From: Chitinophagaceae bacterium
GTDB lineage: Bacteria; Bacteroidota; Bacteroidia; Chitinophagales; Chitinophagaceae
Direction of reading: 5' to 3'
Assembly: GCA_027489035.1 (NCBI GenBank)
Contig: JAIYAN010000015.1
Location: 186,001-250,000, forward strand
DNA: 64,000 bases
Shown one piece after another: positions 52,220-64,000 of this stretch. Position numbers and translations under genes: made by a program. How positions within the stretch are numbered: the first letter of the stretch is position 1; every line of letters starts with the position of its first letter. The notes under the pieces were generated by a model. It was not told where the DNA came from. It worked only from the letters and a program-made list of their open reading frames with translations, and searched no databases.

Positions 52220-53368
52220 ATGATTAATTCATTACATAAAAAACCAAATTTGTTTTTTTTGATGAGTGTTTTTTGTTTTTTGACCTTCTCTTTAAAAACT
52301 TTTTCAAAATCTATTCCAGATCAACAAATACATAAACTTTTTCGCAATTCTTCTAGTTTAAGTTTTAAATCGCCTAATTCCGATTCCAATTATTTTCAAA
52401 AAATGGTAATTAAATTACAACAAGTAAAGTGGTATTATTTAAAAATTAAAGCAGAAAAAAACTGGACAAATATTCCCACAATTAAAAATAAACTTCAAGT
52501 AGGAGATAGTTTAATCTCAATTATTCATATAAAAAACAATCTTAAAAAATCAGGAGATTATGCTGGGTTAGATAGGAGTTTTTATTTTAATGAAGATTTA
52601 AAACTTGCGATTATACATTTCCAAAAAAGGATGGGAATGGATCAAAATGGCATTATAAACAATGCATTGATTTTGCGAATAAACAAAAATGTTGATTATG
52701 TATTAAAGCAAATTGAAGCTAGTATAAAAACGATTTCTGATTTGACAGAAATAGATGTGCGTGATTTCATTTACGTTAATATTCCGGATTTTCATTTGCA
52801 GGTGTATAAAAACAATATACCTCAAATTGAGATGAAAGTAATTGTTGGAAAATTTAAAAATAAAACCCCAACATTTAATACAACGCTAAATGCTGTAGTT
52901 GTTTGTCCTTATTGGAACGTGCCAAAAAGTATAGAACAAAAAGAGATTTTGCCTTTATTGAGAAAGAATCACAATTATTTAGAAAAACACAACATGGAAT
53001 GGAGCAATGGGATAATACGGCAACGTCCTGGTCCTACAAATTCTTTAGGTCGAATTAAGTTTATAATCCCCAATCGTTATTCCGTTTTTTTGCATGATAC
53101 ACCTATTAAAAGTTTGTTTGAAAAAAGAGTACGCATGTTTAGTCATGGTTGCATTAGATTAAATGACGCAAAAAAGTTAGCATTATATGTATTGCAACAA
53201 GAAAAAAACTGGGATAGTTTAAGATTAGAAAATGCAATAAATGAGAACAAAGAAAAAAAGGTAAAATTAAGTACGCCAATACCTGTATATGTTAGCTATT
53301 TAACTGCATGGGTAGACGAAAATGGGATCTTGCAATTGCGTGAAGATATTTATGGAAAGTATAAGTAA
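52220..53368 (+). CDS. L,D-transpeptidase (YkuD family) with peptidoglycan-binding domain
   Basis: About 382 residues from the ATG at 52220 (the track begins at a TTG ten codons upstream). An N-terminal hydrophobic signal/anchor (NLFFLMSVFCFLTFSLKTFSK) is followed by a PG_binding-type helical domain (FNEDLKLAIIHFQKRMGMD, ~115-140). The YkuD catalytic domain starts near YVNIPDFHLQVYKNN and ends with the active-site HDTPIKSLFEKRVRMFSHGC followed by IRLND (catalytic Cys in HGC). It resembles YcbB/LdtD-type enzymes that form 3-3 cross-links in peptidoglycan in the periplasm. Full-length catalytic part. Single gene. Confidence 0.9.
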   Translation: MINSLHKKPNLFFLMSVFCFLTFSLKTFSKSIPDQQIHKLFRNSSSLSFKSPNSDSNYFQKMVIKLQQVKWYYLKIKAEKNWTNIPTIKNKLQVGDSLISIIHIKNNLKKSGDYAGLDRSFYFNEDLKLAIIHFQKRMGMDQNGIINNALILRINKNVDYVLKQIEASIKTISDLTEIDVRDFIYVNIPDFHLQVYKNNIPQIEMKVIVGKFKNKTPTFNTTLNAVVVCPYWNVPKSIEQKEILPLLRKNHNYLEKHNMEWSNGIIRQRPGPTNSLGRIKFIIPNRYSVFLHDTPIKSLFEKRVRMFSHGCIRLNDAKKLALYVLQQEKNWDSLRLENAINENKEKKVKLSTPIPVYVSYLTAWVDENGILQLREDIYGKYK

Positions 53369-53509
53369 AAATTAAAAAGTAAAAAGTGAAACAGATTTCA
53401 CGACGAAGAGCGTATAAAATAAAAGTATGTTCACACACACACAAGTGTGCATTTAGAATTTGAATAAATTCTATTAAAAAATAAAAAAGATTGAAAAATG
53501 TAAACTCGA

Positions 53510-53815
53510 TTATCTTCTTCTGTTATCAAAGCCACCTGGTCTGTTGAATCCACCATTATTTCTGGGTGGTGCGCTTCTCTCTTCAGCTTCTTTTACAACA
53601 AGGGGTTTTTTGCCTAAAGAAATATCATTCAAATGTTCAACAGCTTCTAAGCCATCTTCTCTGTTTTTCATTTCAATAAAAGCGAAACCCTTGCTTTTAC
53701 CAGTTTCTTTATCCAAGGCTACTTTGGCGGAAACGACTTCACCGAATTTTTCAAAAATCTCTTCCAATTCAGCATCATCTAAATCATAAGGTAAGCCAGC
53801 AACGAAAATTTTCAT
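53510..53815 (-). CDS. RNA-binding protein with single RRM domain
   Basis: A 101-residue RRM protein. RNP2 IFVAGL (residues 3-8) and RNP1 KGFAFIEM (about 42-49) are both intact, with the beta-alpha-beta-beta-alpha-beta order of the fold and a Gly/Arg/Asn-rich tail (NNGGFNRPGGFDNRRR). Such small RRM proteins are common in Bacteroidetes and cyanobacteria, and often respond to cold or other stress; the target RNA is unknown. It is divergent from the T9SS gene at 54506, with a ~690-bp spacer between them. On its upstream side lies the terminator-ended small-RNA candidate at 54062-54257. Confidence 0.9.
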   Translation of the reverse strand: MKIFVAGLPYDLDDAELEEIFEKFGEVVSAKVALDKETGKSKGFAFIEMKNREDGLEAVEHLNDISLGKKPLVVKEAEERSAPPRNNGGFNRPGGFDNRRR

Positions 53816-54061
53816 ACGAGTAATTATTTAGGTGAAATTAGTAACTTATTTTTTTTAATTACAATAAATCACTAAAAATATTTTCTCGATTTTCATAAAA
53901 GAAAGATTTACGAAATAGACATTTATAATAAGTTGAAAAAATAAATTAAAGTTTAACGGGCTTTTTTAAAATCAACATCTACATCTCCTTTTTTCGAATA
54001 ATATTTTTTTAGCCCTCAGCAAAATAAAAGTTTCCATTTTTCGTTTAGTAAATACACCTAT

Positions 54062-54257
54062 CGTACCCTAAATCGTTTTTAATCCGTACCCCAAATCAAT
54101 GTGCAAATTTGGGATTTAGTTCGGAGGCTATTTGGTTACATCAAAAAATTAATTTGATTTATTGATGTTTATCATCGCCGTTGCTAACACAAAATACATT
54201 TTCATCAAATGGTGAATTTGTTGAAGAGGTTAATCAGAAATGATTGCCTCTTTTTTT
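54062..54257 (+). ncRNA. Candidate small RNA ended by an orphan terminator
   Basis: Begins with the direct repeat CGTACCCTAAATCG / CGTACCCCAAATC (23 nt apart), then nested palindromes (CCCAAAT...ATTTGGG at 54090-54113; CTAAATC...GATTTAG at 54069-54119) and a hairpin ACATCAA...TTGATGT (54138-54168). The terminator AGAGG...CCTCT + T7 is at 54225-54257. A 16-codon ATG ORF (MFIIAVANTKYIFIKW) lies at 54165-54215, 10 nt before the terminator. The flanking genes run away from this segment, so neither can use that terminator. The exact start is unknown, and the small ORF may be its product. Confidence 0.45.
54225..54257 (+). terminator. Orphan rho-independent terminator
   Basis: GAGGTTAATCA / TGATTGCCTC stem (small bulge) followed by TTTTTTT on the plus strand. 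It has no plus-strand CDS upstream within 850 bp. Confidence 0.75.
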
Positions 54258-54505
54258 GTTGAAAAATTTTTGTGATACTTATCATTTATTTACCTTTCTC
54301 ATAACATACTTTAATTTTTTTGATTTTATAGTTTTGTGGATAAGGAAAACCAATAAGATATTGATTAGAATGTTATGATTTTTTAGAATATTATTATAAT
54401 TTAGATTTTTTATTTCTGATCCTTTTTAGATATCTGCCGAAAATCCTGCCTTTAAATCCAATAGTTTTTTTGTAAAGCCTGGTTTTATCAATAATTAAAT
54501 TAATC

Positions 54506-57500
54506 ATGAAAGCTACTATAAGCTATAAAATTAATGTACAGGCAGAAATTCAAATGCAACGGCGAAAAAGGCTATTTGTTATGCTTTTTGTTTTTTCAAT
54601 CATGAATATTGGTTTGGTTTATGCTCAATGTAGTAATACTTTATCTGGAACGTATACAATTGGTACTTTTGGAAATTTCCCGACACTCACAGCTGCTGCC
54701 AATCAATACAATACATCTTGCTTATCTGGAAACGTAGAATTTATTTTAATTGATTCTTTTTATAGCAATGCTGAAAATTTTCCAATTGTTTTTGCAAATA
54801 ATGAAAATGCTTCGATTTCTAATTCGTTGACTATAAAACCACAATCCAATAATGTTGTGCGTATAACAGGAAATGTAAATGATAATCCAATTCTTAAAAT
54901 AACGGGAAATTTCATTACCATTAATGGTTCAAATAATAACGCTAACACTAAAAACTTAACAATAATAAACGAGAGTACCTTACAGCCAAGGGTGATTTTA
55001 TTGGGTTCTGAAGGTACTGTTTCTGTAAACAATTGTACCATAAAAAATTGTGTGTTAATCAATGGAAATGACAAAAGCGTAATTACCATTTCTGATGCTA
55101 TAACAATTGCAAATCCTGGATTTTTTTCTAACATAAATCTTGAAAACAATCTAATTCAAAGGTCGTTATATGGAATTTATGCCAATGCTAAAATTGTAGC
55201 GGGTAATGGTAGCGGTCTTTCAATAAAAAATAATGAATTAAACTCAAGTGGTGTCAACGCGATTAGAAATGTAGGGATTTATTTAAAAGGTATTGATGGG
55301 GCAATTATTGATGCAAATGTAATCGGTAATTTTTCCAATACAGATGATGCTACCGATAAAGGAATTTATCTAGCTGATACGGTTCGAAACGCTGTAGTTT
55401 CCAACAATAAAATTTACAATTTAAATTATACCCGTACAAATGGATTTGGTGCTCATGGTATAAATATTTCAACTGGATATGCCAATGCGAGCATAACTGT
55501 GTTTAACAACATGATTGCAAATCTTTCGGGCGATGGATCTGATTTTACTTCGGGAAGTATAGATAATCCTACAGGAATCATGATAGACAATTTTCCAACT
55601 GATCAAACTGGTATTAAATTGTACCATAATTCTATTTTTTTAGGAGGTGTTGCAGGTTTTACCAATACGCTAAATAAAATCAATGCTGTGTCATCTTGTA
55701 TTCGAATAAAAGGCACAAGTAAGGCAGAAATTATCAATAATATTTTAGTCAATAATCTTGGTTTAAAAAATGGTTTAGGATTTGGAGCAGTTTGTATTTT
55801 AACTTCTAGGGGAGGGACGCAATTTGATTTACTTGATTATAACGATTATGCAGTCAATCCTATTGGCAATGGTGTAAAATTATTTGGTTATAATTTCAAT
55901 GGAAACTTGGCGTATGCTTCTTTGTCAACATGGAAAACCGCCACATCAAAAGACGTTAATTCAATAAACATTATACCCTCATTTATTTCAGGTATTGATT
56001 TGCATTTAAACGATAACAATAATAATTTATTGAGCAATCTAGGCACTCCAATAGCCGGACTTTATAATGATATTGATTCTGCTTCAAGAAATTTAATTAG
56101 GCCAGATATTGGATGCGATGAATTTGTATTGAGTAACACCGCAAATTGGATTGGGCGAATTTCTACTTCATGGGATAATTCAAACAATTGGGAAGATAAT
56201 ATAATGCCTAATGAAACAAAAGATGTAAGCTTAAGTCACAATTCCAATTATGTTCCTTCTGGATTAAATTTTACAAAAGTTAGAAATTTATATCTTTCAA
56301 GTGTTTCTGATGAAGTGTTATTGAATTTAGATACTTTGCAAACATTGGAAATTTATGGGGCATTAACTAAAAATGGGGGTAAAATTGACGCGTCGAAATG
56401 CAGCATTTCAATGAGTGGAAATTCATTGCAAACCATTCCTGCGAATATTTTCGAAAATAATAAAGTACTCAATTTAGAAATTGCCAACTCGAGCATAAGT
56501 GGCGTTGTGTTATCTGGTAAACTAGATATATACCGTTCCTTAAAATTTTCAACTGCTGGATTAAAACTAACAACAAATAATTTCCTTACACTAAAATCTA
56601 CATTAAATGAAACCGCTTGGGTTGGAGATTTGACCGGTAAAAAAATTGAAGGAAATGTTACCGTTGAAAGATTTATCCCAACAGGAATTTCGCATGTTAA
56701 ATCTTGGCAATTGCTTGCTGTTCCAACATTTGGTAGTCAAACCGTAAATCAAAGTTGGCAAGATTCTGCAACTTCGGCCAATCAATCCCGTTATGCTGGT
56801 TATGGAACCATGATAACGAGTAGTTTGCCTAATGCGCTTGCACTTGGTTTTGATGCATATACCGCCCCTGGTGGAACAATGAAAACCTATAATTCGAGTG
56901 ATAACAGTTATATAGGAATTGCATCTACACAAATTCCAATTCAAAATTCAAAAGGTTATTTTGTTTATGTGAGGGGGGATCGAACGGTTACAACGTTTAA
57001 TGCTCTAGCTAATGCTACTATATTAAGAACAACTGGAAAATTATATGCTGCCAATGCAGGTGAACTTCCACCAGTTACAAACATTAATGCCAATCGTTTT
57101 GAATGCATCGGAAATCCATATGCATCAGCTATTGATTTTACAACAATTAATATATCTGGAAACATAGACAACACATTTTATGTTTGGGACCCTTTATTAA
57201 CTGGACATAATATTCAAGGTGGATATCAAACCATTAGCAGTACAAATGGTTACTTACCCATACCCGGTGGTACGTCAAATTATAGTGGATTAGAACCTGT
57301 TACAGCAATTCAATCAGGACAAGCATTTTTTATGCATGCTACTGGTGCCGGTTCTGGCGGTAATATTTCTTTTGCTGAATCTTGTAAAATTACAGGAAGT
57401 AAAATGCAATTCAGGGAAAATAATGAAGCCAATAATTTAAATTTTATTTCTACAAAATTATATGGGGTAAACATTACGGGAAATTATTTGACAGATGGAA

Positions 57501-58435
57501 ATATGTTGGTACTAAATGCATCTTATAACAATAGTTACGATAAAGAAGACGCATTGAAATTAAAAAACAGTAGCGAGAATTTTGGCATTATTTCTGAGGG
57601 TAAACTGTTGTCTATTGAAGCACGAAAATCTTATAATCCATTGGATACTTTACAATTTCAAATAAGTAATGTAAAGACTCAATCATATCAATTAAAAATT
57701 AACCTTCACGTAGATTCAATAATCACGTTGATGCCGATTATGGTTGACCGTTATACCAACATACAATATCCATTAAATTGGAGTGATTCTTTAACCATTA
57801 ATTTTAATGTTAATAGCAATCCATTGTCCTATGCTTCAAATCGTTTTTATATCTTGATGAAACCTGTTGTTGTGTTACCATTGAATAAAATAGTATTAAC
57901 TGGTACTAACATCAACAGCAAAATAAATAAGTTGCTGTTTAAAGTATATAACCCCAATTTAATAAAGCAATATGAGATTCAAAGAAGCATAAACGGAAAT
58001 GAGTTTTCTACCATTTCAATAATATCATTAAACAGCAATAATCAACATCAAACAGATTTCGAATTTTTAGATCAATCTTTTGTTAGCAACACAAATTTTT
58101 ATAGAATAAAAGTTGCAAATATTGATGGAAGTTTTGAGTTTAGTAATTCGATAAAAATTGCAAGCAAGAAAAAAGATTTTGACATTACCATGTCGTCGAA
58201 TGTTATTTTAAATAATCAAATTTCTTTGTTGATAAATTCTGTTAGAAAAGGCAATTTGAATTATTTTATAGCTGACGAAGCAGGAAGAATGTTGCAGTCC
58301 AATAAATTAAATTATCAAATAGGTTCTCAACAAATTACAATCAATATAAACGCAAACTTGCCTAAAGGGATTTATTACTTAAAGTTATTCGTTGAAAACA
58401 ATAAAATCCCATTTGTATTTAAAATGATTAAATAA
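54506..58435 (+). CDS. Large secreted protein with beta-helix region and T9SS sorting domain
   Basis: A 1309-residue exported protein. The N-terminus carries 16 residues before a better signal start (second Met, MQRRKRLFVMLFVFSIMN...VYAQC), so translation might begin at codon 17. Residues ~60-480 contain repeated beta strands with Asn ladders (FITINGSNNNANTKNLTI; GIYANAKI; AVVSNNKIYNLNY), typical of right-handed parallel beta-helix (pectate-lyase-like) proteins. A GRISTSWDNSNNWEDNIMPNETKDV segment (~548-575) resembles the region often found between helix and sorting domain. The C-terminus (QYEIQRSINGNEFSTISI ... KGIYYLKLFVENNKIPFVFKMIK) is a type A sorting domain. Likely surface-exposed; possible polysaccharide interaction is only inferred from the fold. 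Confidence 0.82.
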   Translation: MKATISYKINVQAEIQMQRRKRLFVMLFVFSIMNIGLVYAQCSNTLSGTYTIGTFGNFPTLTAAANQYNTSCLSGNVEFILIDSFYSNAENFPIVFANNENASISNSLTIKPQSNNVVRITGNVNDNPILKITGNFITINGSNNNANTKNLTIINESTLQPRVILLGSEGTVSVNNCTIKNCVLINGNDKSVITISDAITIANPGFFSNINLENNLIQRSLYGIYANAKIVAGNGSGLSIKNNELNSSGVNAIRNVGIYLKGIDGAIIDANVIGNFSNTDDATDKGIYLADTVRNAVVSNNKIYNLNYTRTNGFGAHGINISTGYANASITVFNNMIANLSGDGSDFTSGSIDNPTGIMIDNFPTDQTGIKLYHNSIFLGGVAGFTNTLNKINAVSSCIRIKGTSKAEIINNILVNNLGLKNGLGFGAVCILTSRGGTQFDLLDYNDYAVNPIGNGVKLFGYNFNGNLAYASLSTWKTATSKDVNSINIIPSFISGIDLHLNDNNNNLLSNLGTPIAGLYNDIDSASRNLIRPDIGCDEFVLSNTANWIGRISTSWDNSNNWEDNIMPNETKDVSLSHNSNYVPSGLNFTKVRNLYLSSVSDEVLLNLDTLQTLEIYGALTKNGGKIDASKCSISMSGNSLQTIPANIFENNKVLNLEIANSSISGVVLSGKLDIYRSLKFSTAGLKLTTNNFLTLKSTLNETAWVGDLTGKKIEGNVTVERFIPTGISHVKSWQLLAVPTFGSQTVNQSWQDSATSANQSRYAGYGTMITSSLPNALALGFDAYTAPGGTMKTYNSSDNSYIGIASTQIPIQNSKGYFVYVRGDRTVTTFNALANATILRTTGKLYAANAGELPPVTNINANRFECIGNPYASAIDFTTINISGNIDNTFYVWDPLLTGHNIQGGYQTISSTNGYLPIPGGTSNYSGLEPVTAIQSGQAFFMHATGAGSGGNISFAESCKITGSKMQFRENNEANNLNFISTKLYGVNITGNYLTDGNMLVLNASYNNSYDKEDALKLKNSSENFGIISEGKLLSIEARKSYNPLDTLQFQISNVKTQSYQLKINLHVDSIITLMPIMVDRYTNIQYPLNWSDSLTINFNVNSNPLSYASNRFYILMKPVVVLPLNKIVLTGTNINSKINKLLFKVYNPNLIKQYEIQRSINGNEFSTISIISLNSNNQHQTDFEFLDQSFVSNTNFYRIKVANIDGSFEFSNSIKIASKKKDFDITMSSNVILNNQISLLINSVRKGNLNYFIADEAGRMLQSNKLNYQIGSQQITININANLPKGIYYLKLFVENNKIPFVFKMIK

Positions 58436-61900: not shown

Positions 61901-64000
61901 AATTTCATTTAGAAGCACATCAGTAGCAAATGCTGGCAACATCACCAATTGGAATTGGAATATGGGAGACGGAACAGTTTATTCATTTACTAACCCAAAT
62001 ACTTTTAGTCATACATTTAATAATATTGGAAACAACACCGTTTCATTAACCGTAACCACAGATAAAGGTTGTGTGAGTATTTTACGCGATACCACAATTT
62101 TCATCCATGCCATACCTGTTGCGGGCTTCATCGATCCTGAGGTTTGTTTATCTGATACTTATGCTCAATTTACAGACACTTCAACTGTTTTGGGTGGTAC
62201 AATTGTAAGTTGGAATTGGAATTTTGATCATCCGCAAAGTGGTGCAGCTAATACATCTACCCTTCAAAATCCTCGACATAGTTATGCTACAATTGGTACA
62301 AAAAATGTAACATTTATTGTAACCAGCAATCAAGGGTGTAAGGATACCGTTACACAAACCTTTTTTGTAAATGGAGATATTCCAGTTGCTGGTTTGCAAG
62401 TGTTAAACCCAACAAGATTATGCGCTAATGATTCCGTTGCAATAAAAGATTTGTCAACAGTAAATGTTGGTTCAGTAGTAAAAGTTGACATTTATTGGGA
62501 TGCATTAGGTGCGCCTACAACTTTTGAAACAGATCAGTTGCCATACAATGGAAAAATATACAAACATCTGTATCCAAACTTCCAAACCCCGCTGACTAAA
62601 ACTTATACCATAAGGTTTAGGGCTTATTCTGGTGAAACTTGTGTTGATGATTTTACGCAGACCATCACCATAAATGCGGCTCCGAAAGTAAGATTCAATA
62701 TTATTCCAGATACTTGTCAGTTTATTTTACCTTTCCCAATTACACAAGCATCTGAAATTGGAGGTGTACCAGGAACATTTGTATTTACAGGCCAAGGCAT
62801 TACAAGTGCGGGTGTATATAATCCGGTATTAAATGGAGCTGGAACATTTGATTTACATTACGTGTATACCTCAACTGCAGGTTGCTCCGATTCAGCAGAT
62901 AGGCCAATAAAAATCTTACAAGCACCATTGGCTAATTATGGGTATTCATTACCAACATGTGAAAAGAAACAGGTTTTATTTACAGATTCATCAAGTGCTC
63001 TAGTTGGAAATTTAACTACATGGACATGGAATTTTGGGGATGGAACACCGATATTGGTTAGAAATACGAATTCACCTTTTAACCATGTGTTTAACAATCC
63101 GGGTATTTACAATGTAATATTATTTGTAACTACAGATGATGGATGTAACAGTAAAACCAAAGTAATTGAAGTTGATATTCATCCCGAACCATTAGCTAAA
63201 TTCAAGTTTTCAGATACAGCTTGTTTGCCAAATGCAAAGGTTTTGTTTACAAATACATCAACTATTCCTGATGGTACTGTATCAACACTAAGTTATACAT
63301 GGAATTTTGGAGATCCTTCATCAGGCGCACAAAACACATCAAATGCAATAAACCCAAATCATATTTTTACTACAACAGGGCCTTATAATGTTACTTTAAA
63401 TGTGGTTTCAATAAATGGATGTAAAGATGATAGTACAATTAGCGTAAACACCATACATCCTCAACCTGAAGCTCGTTTTAATTTTTCAAAACCTTCTGTT
63501 TGTGTAGGTGATAATGTTCGATTCATAGATGTCAGTGATCCAAAAGATGGAATAACATCACAATGGAATTGGAGTTTTGCCGACGGATCTTCATCAACAC
63601 AAGTATCTCCGATACATACATATTCAAGCGTTGGTGTGTTTTCACCTTCGTTATACATTGTAAATAGTTTTGGTTGTAATAGTGATACTATTAGTAATCC
63701 ATTTGAAGTGTATGCTTATCCGGTTATTTCTGCAGGGCCAGATTTATTAATTTTAGAAGGCTCAACAATGCCACTTCAAGCAACTGCTTCAGGTAATGAA
63801 TTACAGTATTTATGGACAAGCAGTCAATACTTGAATAACGTTAATTTATTGAATCCGCTTTGTACACCTATGGATGACATCATGTATACCTTAACTGTAA
63901 CGGGCGAAGGTGGTTGTCCTTCAATAGATCAAATGAAAGTGAAGGTTTTAAAAACACCAATCATTCCCAACACATTTTCACCAAATAATGATGGTATAAA
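58998..64000 (+). CDS. Giant PKD-repeat adhesin-like protein with gliding/type B sorting domain, 3' end cut
   Basis: Missing from the ORF track because it runs off the window: open from ATG 58998 to the end (over 1660 codons, frame checked at several points). Signal peptide MRKPLLLIIFIFSALFSYAQ; an N-terminal domain with GKEFWVAYGFH resembles the IgGFc-binding-protein type (~22-490). A run of ten glycines (GGC/GGT/GGA) lies near residue 215. From ~630 there are about nine PKD-like repeats with W-x-(F/Y)-G-D/N-G cores (WDYGDG, WTYGDG, WDFGDG, WNMGDG, WNFGDG...). The last residues, IIPNTFSPNNDGI, open the CHU_C/gliding-motility-associated type B sorting domain. A very large surface or released adhesin is expected. 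Confidence 0.85.
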   Translation, partial: MRKPLLLIIFIFSALFSYAQNFSNKGKEFWVAYGFHVRMAQSNGGGSNINAQNMVLYFATDEVTTITISIPSLGYSQTLTSPATPTVLTSAVIPKAIPQDARLTAESTSPEDKGIHIVADKPVVAYAHIYDGSVSGATILFPVTTLGKEYYSINYTARSNENNSNAWFYVIATDTGTTTVEITPSANTINMTANTTYTINMTQGQVFNVMGQLTGGGGGGGGGGSYTGVDLTGSKIKSIASGNGACKRIAVFSGSGKMFISCDGSSSSSDNYMVQAFPKDAWGKKFLTVPTSSLVNNFFRVCVTNPTTPVLVNGAALSTASLINNFYYDLPLTSLPQKIESEDPITVAQYIASQGECGNPNPTGTYPGDPEVIYLSSVEQNIAKVLWNATPFAAISQHYYNVVIPNAGTAISSFKLDGVNVSPASFTVHPQDPSFSYLSSRLSAAGVHSIESDSGFNAIAYGYGSAESYGYNAGTNIKDLYNFLAPVNPYSITTDPVACTGSPVYLTVTFPFEPTYLNWNFNANPNQSPNANQVMNSPVADTTYLIGNKRVWRYRLPILYTFSPSNTSPGYLISITAGTQSVEGCGSSIDRDFYLAVYDPPVAQIYWSNNGCVTDTVRFRDTTTYLAGTYPYKYFWDYGDGTTDSVRHPKHKYANAGTYIVKFCMISNVGCFSDTARDTITVTNVPTASFSVALPTCVNTTVNLTNTSSIIAPGNIKEWHWTYGDGNTQTITQPANGNAQHVYSTLGAVTPQLYVVSSSGCVSNTFSNPINIGAYPIASFSVPATVCLPYDSARFTNLSTISDNTPNSLSTVWTFGNPASGIYDTIRNAAPTHYYSSPGPYNVHLTTTSVNGCVDDTTISFNNVYAQADANFTTLPENCLNTPTNFVSSSNGNGRTISTWFWDFGDGSAIGNGQTVSHTYATPGTKTIKHWVQLDVGCYSDTMVQTVVINPLPTASFTSTGPFCTTRLISFRSTSVANAGNITNWNWNMGDGTVYSFTNPNTFSHTFNNIGNNTVSLTVTTDKGCVSILRDTTIFIHAIPVAGFIDPEVCLSDTYAQFTDTSTVLGGTIVSWNWNFDHPQSGAANTSTLQNPRHSYATIGTKNVTFIVTSNQGCKDTVTQTFFVNGDIPVAGLQVLNPTRLCANDSVAIKDLSTVNVGSVVKVDIYWDALGAPTTFETDQLPYNGKIYKHLYPNFQTPLTKTYTIRFRAYSGETCVDDFTQTITINAAPKVRFNIIPDTCQFILPFPITQASEIGGVPGTFVFTGQGITSAGVYNPVLNGAGTFDLHYVYTSTAGCSDSADRPIKILQAPLANYGYSLPTCEKKQVLFTDSSSALVGNLTTWTWNFGDGTPILVRNTNSPFNHVFNNPGIYNVILFVTTDDGCNSKTKVIEVDIHPEPLAKFKFSDTACLPNAKVLFTNTSTIPDGTVSTLSYTWNFGDPSSGAQNTSNAINPNHIFTTTGPYNVTLNVVSINGCKDDSTISVNTIHPQPEARFNFSKPSVCVGDNVRFIDVSDPKDGITSQWNWSFADGSSSTQVSPIHTYSSVGVFSPSLYIVNSFGCNSDTISNPFEVYAYPVISAGPDLLILEGSTMPLQATASGNELQYLWTSSQYLNNVNLLNPLCTPMDDIMYTLTVTGEGGCPSIDQMKVKVLKTPIIPNTFSPNNDGI

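Follow-up and report, generated by a model that had tools for sequence, protein, structure and literature searches.

Which transcript ends at an intrinsic terminator that stands between two divergent genes? The window analysed here is a stretch of 64 kb from a member of the Chitinophagaceae, which we take to be a freshwater bacterium, and the intergenic region concerned (53816-54505) separates a leftward gene for an RRM-domain protein from a rightward gene for a protein of 1309 residues. The original prediction, made from the sequence of the window, was that the terminator belongs to an unannotated small RNA or a tiny gene. Its coordinates hold: the terminator lies 410 bp from the start of the RRM open reading frame and 248 bp before the start of the next one (Table 1).

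A conserved structured RNA between divergent genes

The terminator hairpin (-13.9 kcal/mol) ranks third among the 275 runs of at least six T residues in the window. A simple terminator scan of 53000-55200 gave no match, as the stem contains a bulge. The RRM protein scores 96.2 bits against NCBIfam Rbp_regulator, slightly below the cut-off of 100, and its gene has its own promoter, near its ATG. The RRM genes of the window and of loci L010-L029 have in common a promoter-like block, AAGTT-N3-TAATTTCAC, about 15–20 nt upstream of the ATG; the candidate GUUGCUAA in the RRM 5' region was rejected as the same motif, being the RRM core promoter and not conserved. For the 1309-residue protein, originally labelled as a T9SS protein, searches of Pfam and NCBIfam gave no confirmation of that label.

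A DNA search among 93 congeneric genomes identified copies at the same position in three of them (G078, G015 and G007), each between an RRM gene and a homologue of the gene for the 1309-residue protein. The nearest organisms that bear names are metagenome-assembled genomes of Chitinophagaceae. Over about 198 nt these copies are 92–96% identical, compared with 46–59% at the four-fold-degenerate sites of the flanking genes, and outside the conserved block (about 54035-54257) the intergenic DNA cannot be aligned among the close relatives. The segment of 196 nt folds with -48.1 kcal/mol versus -34.2 +/- 3.6 for shuffled sequences (z = -3.9, with 0 out of 200 shuffles as good), the z-scores range from -2.7 to -4.3 across the four close species, and a fold with three hairpins is predicted alike in all four. 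Since it is conserved in relatives, the feature is beyond chance. The high identity of the block relative to its flanks, the fold z-score, the conserved terminator and the downstream gene's own promoter make it nearly certain that a separate ncRNA gene occupies 54058-54256. The terminator, the block and the downstream promoter also suggest that this RNA is transcribed and terminated separately from its neighbours.

TAnnTTTG is a promoter element of the Bacteroidota. The one assigned to the gene for the 1309-residue protein lies beyond the terminator, and in the alignment its position is taken by TAGCTTTG in G078 and by TATATTTG in both G015 and G007. The promoter-like sequence on the left margin of this block contains no TAnnTTTG, and a CGTTTA-type stretch recurs 5' of the more diverged homologues described below, at variable distance. 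Across the window TAnnTTTG is depleted (75 sites against 115 expected from shuffles), as though selection acts against stray promoters.

Table 1. Features of the intergenic locus, its neighbours and the partner sRNA (window positions, except for the sRNA).
Feature	Position	Strand	Remarks
RRM-domain RNA-binding protein, 101 aa, divergent neighbour	53510..53815	-	Pfam RRM_1, 74 bits
Promoter-like conserved stretch TTTTTCGTTTA	54037..54047	+	left edge of conserved block
Structured ncRNA (span of model R1)	54058..54256	+	conserved in G078, G015, G007; ~180-200 nt
5' domain: CCGTACCC motif and hairpin CCCAAAT...ATTTGGG, closed by UCCG...CGGA	54084..54128	+	folds of four close homologues
Second hairpin, closed by GGC...GCC, with TTACATCAA...TTGATG	54126..54179	+	fold alike in four close homologues; two-sided changes in G066
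16-codon ORF, judged not a gene	54165..54215	+	frameshift in G078
Putative sRNA-binding linker GCCGUUGCUAAC-AC-AAAAUAC	54177..54197	+	12 bp + 7 bp complement of sRNA seed
Third hairpin TTTTCATC...GGTGAATTTG	54199..54220	+	folds of four close homologues
Intrinsic terminator AGAGGTTAATCAGAAATGATTGCCTCTTTTTTT	54225..54257	+	13-pair stem, T run; two-sided changes in G066
TAGTTTTG, TAnnTTTG promoter element of 1309-aa gene	54329..54336	+	70 nt past terminator
Next gene, 1309 aa, secreted-looking, putative surface protein	54506..58435	+	
Partner sRNA in this genome (G000), one copy	contig C4, ~62,605-62,665 (L174 1461-1527)	-	

Diverged homologues

The original prediction had proposed conservation of the stems and a covariance search in related genomes as checks. 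The stems are kept in G078, G015 and G007, and a covariance model (R1), searched in the genomes of the genus, identified a homologue in G066 (24.9 bits, full length), which is also divergent from its RRM gene. It keeps 48 of the 57 modelled pairs, several with two-sided changes. Almost all two-sided changes derive from G066, the alignment of which leans to the model, and the covariation support for the structure is real but thin. Among the weak R1 matches G066 alone was accepted, on the basis of synteny and of the full-length match; the others in the genus score under about 27 bits and for the most part reflect chance or a terminator in common. With same-position copies that retain stems and terminator amid intergenic DNA that is otherwise not alignable, and with the pairs kept in G066, the prediction of an unannotated small RNA is strongly supported. 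The direct repeat also noted upstream of the terminator (CGTACCCTAAATC, 54062-54074, and CGTACCCCAAATC, 54085-54097) is present, with 12 of 13 positions identical, but it is weak by itself and is not listed by the repeat finder.

A string search with GCCGTTGCTAA added G085, G073, G080, G006 and G075, giving ten homologues in all. In the six diverged homologues a 5' motif like CCGTACC(C) has been kept, along with the terminator, a small hairpin and the invariant string GCCGUUGCUAA(C) or GCCGTTGCTAA(C); the CCGTACCC motif is present in G066, G085, G073 and G080, and is weak in G006 and G075. In G006, G073, G080 and G085 the third hairpin is replaced by a short GGC-AAA-GCC hairpin. The core of the linker between the second and third hairpins is invariant in the ten genomes, and GUUGCUAAC has a predicted probability of 0.70 of being unpaired. 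In five genomes the RRM gene is directly beside the ncRNA, and in three more it is at most about 1.1 kb away; the next gene after the ncRNA encodes a peptidylprolyl isomerase in G085, G073 and G006. The ten ncRNA homologues share one ancestry, and represent one evolutionary event rather than ten.

A putative family-wide partner sRNA

A search for GCCGTTGCTAAC in the genus showed that most non-coding matches belong to one near-invariant element, located 25–60 nt past a gene for an HxHxDH (metallo-beta-lactamase-type) hydrolase. One segment of this element, here called the partner sRNA, has GCCGUUGCUAAC as its reverse complement. Read on the opposite strand, it consists of TAnnTTTG, five nucleotides, GGTGTTTTTCATAGGTTAGCAAC (starting with GGTG) and a terminator hairpin, corresponding to an sRNA of about 55 nt in which the terminator stem varies with matching changes and the 5' end does not. 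This invariant 5' end of 23 nt, GGUGUUUUUCAUAGGUUAGCAAC, is complementary to the translation start AUG-AAA-AAC, being the reverse complement of GUUGCUAACCU-AUG-AAA-AAC-ACC (AACCU-AUG-AAA-AAC-ACC), a context that probably represents a start codon with the Lys-rich beginning typical of exported proteins. The single copy in the present genome has the sequence TATTTTTG-GGGCA-GGTGTTTTTCATAGGTTAGCAACGGCCAGCCCTGTCTAGGGCAGGCCTCTCTTTTTT, and its positions 1–23 are unpaired in the minimum-energy structure. The reverse complement of the invariant ncRNA string spans both the invariant 5' end of the sRNA and the base of its terminator stem.

The 27-nt motif GGCCGTTGCTAACCTATGAAAAACACC of this sRNA was found, with at most three mismatches, in 57 of the 130 family genomes sampled and in 47 of the 103 genera, with up to 11 copies per genome, while its reversed control gave zero matches across the same 130 genomes. 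Outside the Chitinophagaceae the motif is essentially absent in this sampling. Comparison of six sRNA loci with Rfam at E <= 1 gave no match. Loci of the sRNA include L143, L145, L147, L149, L152, L155, L157 and L160-L163; in the first of them (G019) three copies stand in tandem, spaced by about 150 nt.

Proposed decoy function

We propose, with a probability slightly better than even (about 0.52), that 54058-54256 on the plus strand encodes a free-standing ncRNA acting as a decoy (sponge) for this family-wide, FopS-like sRNA. The 5' end of the sRNA would block mRNAs beginning with AUG-AAA-AA, its expected targets being mRNAs that start with CUAACCUAUGAAAAA. The linker of the ncRNA, GCCGUUGCUAAC followed by AAAAUAC and exposed between hairpins, would bind the sRNA, most likely at 54177-54197, and by titrating it would free its targets; as the AUG region is omitted from the ncRNA, the decoy itself would escape translation. 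The adjacent RRM protein would be the likely RNA-binding partner, by analogy with RbpB for FopS. Transcription, pairing in the cell, the decoy effect and the involvement of the RRM protein are what we infer from the sequences.

All ten ncRNAs are predicted to be able to pair with the sRNA, through 12–16 bp and a second block, most of them skipping the AUG region. In the four close species the duplex comprises 12 bp (GCCGUUGCUAAC) and 7–8 bp (AAAAUAC), with CAUAG of the sRNA looped out; in G085, G073 and G080 it comprises 15–16 continuous bp (GGCCGUUGCUAACCUA) and a second block. The duplex of the window ncRNA has an energy of -25.3 kcal/mol versus -15.0 +/- 2.5 for shuffles. Duplexes within the same genome range from -25 to -32 kcal/mol, compared with -14 to -17 for shuffles, and 0–2 of 500 shuffles reach the value of the native pair; nine ncRNAs were tested with the sRNA of their own genome, and that of G085 with the sRNA of G073 (-37). 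When the folding of both partners is included, net binding amounts to -10.8 to -23.9, against -7.0 +/- 2.5 for random segments of the window, the -10.8 belonging to G066, where the second-block pairing is weaker. Two of 200 random segments bind the sRNA as strongly as the window ncRNA does, one other site in the 64 kb matches its duplex energy (-25.9), a 12-nt match is expected by chance about 0.4 times per genome, and in the close homologues the GCC of the linker match sits in a stem. The pairing argument draws its weight from the fact that the match joins invariant parts of both RNAs and extends in the other clade. From the predicted structures, the stretch complementary to the sRNA seed is accessible in the window ncRNA, whose genome also encodes the sRNA; the predicted duplexes indicate that the complementarity is retained in ten genomes, including the diverged homologues.

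An unlinked locus in G010 carries GCCGUUGCUAAC-AAAACACC followed by a terminator, i.e. the complement of the sRNA minus CUAUGA, and is likely to be an independent decoy in the same genus. In a family-wide search beyond the genus, the decoy string gave three exact matches besides the window: two of them, one within a coding sequence and the other within a 5'UTR, are not decoys, and the intergenic third has no recognisable context of a homologue. Whether the parts form a circuit of three, with a near-invariant family sRNA, a sublineage decoy without AUG and the RRM protein (perhaps with a second decoy antisense to mraY-murD), is more tentative, and we would put such a circuit somewhat short of even odds.

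Alternative functions

The main rival explanation, which we consider unlikely, is an independent trans-acting sRNA whose exposed linker GUUGCUAACACAAAAUACA pairs with mRNAs, so that the match to the FopS-like sRNA would be secondary or accidental. The anatomy of the ncRNA is indeed seed-like, with an exposed conserved stretch between hairpins and a terminator, and the mRNA strand of the mraY-murD intergenic region contains UGUGUUAGCAACGGCG, a perfect complement of 16 nt, in G000, G007 and G078. However, that site may itself act as a decoy from the opposite strand, on which a hairpin loop contains it and a T run comes next, and none of the remaining 12-mer sites read in other ncRNA-bearing genomes falls in mraY-murD. 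Moreover, GTTAGCAACG is not enriched in four genomes (5, 4, 5 and 5 sites versus 13, 11, 8 and 11 for the reversed control), and apart from the ncRNA itself only the site in the partner sRNA recurs in each of these genomes.

Even less probable is that the ncRNA serves to bind the adjacent RRM protein, either by CsrB-like titration or as an RRM-dependent RNA, with the sRNA match not being its main task. The conserved linkage to the RRM gene would fit such a role, as would the binding of sRNAs by RbpB in Bacteroides (PMC11697453). Linkage by itself does not equal binding, however; the promoter of the RRM gene is its own, and each ncRNA has the invariant string a single time, unlike the many copies in known protein sponges.

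That the element is a leader or attenuator of the gene for the 1309-residue protein, with a conditional terminator, seems very improbable, although it is on the same strand as this gene and at a constant distance from it (243–255 nt in four species). In all four species the TAnnTTTG of the gene is past the terminator, G085, G073 and G006 have the peptidylprolyl isomerase gene at this position instead, and the predicted structures give no sign of an alternative anti-terminator fold; a cis-acting riboswitch or attenuator would be at odds with this separate downstream promoter and with a downstream gene that differs in other clades.

The tiny gene of the original prediction can practically be dismissed: its 16-codon frame is intact in three of the four close homologues, but one extra A shifts it in G078 (barring a sequencing error), the diverged homologues lack it, and the conservation is not codon-like and spans the whole RNA.

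Comparison with known RNA regulators

In B. thetaiotaomicron the FopS sRNAs are multicopy and consist of a 5' seed and a terminator; RbpB, an RRM protein, binds them, and their action is at start codons (PMC11697453). The partner sRNA resembles FopS/GibS in its canonical promoter, its single-stranded 5' seed of about 20 nt, its terminator, its multiple copies in some genomes and its complementarity to a start-codon context, and the ncRNA locus shares with FopS/GibS and RbpB a nearby RRM gene. By its predicted fold, a conserved single-stranded 5' seed precedes a terminator in the FopS manner, but the partner sRNA has no match in Rfam, and the likeness is one of architecture, without a claim of homology. 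In contrast to FopS/GibS, the window RNA is the complement and no FopS, and in the genomes sampled the partner sRNA does not extend beyond one family.

Sponges of sRNAs are known as a kind, such as a quorum-sensing sponge in Vibrio cholerae (PMC9732341) and an antagonist of PinT in Salmonella (PMC12721325); in the literature we found none for the Bacteroidota in a comparable genomic setting. As a putative sponge, the window RNA is similar to these two in being a separate RNA with an exposed complement to a conserved sRNA seed, and differs in belonging to another phylum, in its link to an RRM gene, in a family-wide partner sRNA with a motif complementary to a start codon and in the omission of the AUG region from most of the putative decoys. 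Rfp18 of Flavobacterium (PMC9723704), compared by its description, is likewise a structured intergenic sRNA of the Bacteroidota with genus-wide conservation, but it targets metalloprotease mRNAs through a stem-loop. The 6S-Flavo RNA (RF01685) is a structured Bacteroidota RNA of a similar size class; it has no match in the window, the window RNA lacks a 5'-3' closing stem, and the best RF01685 match in the genome, on another contig, has 25 bits against a cut-off of 85, so that 6S RNA was rejected as an assignment.

No description of the ncRNA or the sRNA was found in the open-access literature; nor is either in Rfam, where the ncRNA matched no family at the gathering threshold or at E <= 10. 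Beyond Bacteroides and Flavobacterium, control by sRNAs in the Bacteroidota has hardly been explored, and the present pair is testable: an sRNA with an invariant seed of 23 nt, in about half of the sampled genera of the family, and a conserved putative absorber RNA. If the proposal is true, RRM-type RNA regulation in the Bacteroidota includes sponges, and the predicted sRNA targets are mRNAs with the AUG-AAA-AA beginning typical of exported proteins.

Other sequence elements at related loci

In several loci (L003, L004, L014, L018, L021, L022 and L024) a leftward sigma54-type promoter, TTTGGCACGnTAnTTGAAA, is followed by a degenerate, G-poor repeat array of 300–550 nt (AATCC, ATCCTTTGAAAGACCA), situated between the RRM gene, or an ORF of 82 aa, and the ncRNA; it is deleted in the window. 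This array was rejected as a tandem decoy of the sRNA, as on intact arrays the real seed did not outperform its shuffled or reversed versions. A coding role of the upstream TTTCAAnTAnCGTGCCAAA was rejected, since its frames contain stops; on the complementary strand it reads as a sigma54 promoter.

The mraY-murD region (L111, G000:C20:218676; L094; L101) has CGCCGTTGCTAACACA on its antisense strand, within the loop of a hairpin that precedes a T run, and TTTTAATCCGTACCC on its sense strand; both of the strongest motifs of the window RNA occur there, in opposite orientation, and the region is possibly a second decoy or a target. Finally, protein genes at L065, L083, L084 (G023) and L086 (G295) carry GCCGTTGCTAACC in what look like 5' leaders; their mRNAs are possibly controlled by the sRNA.
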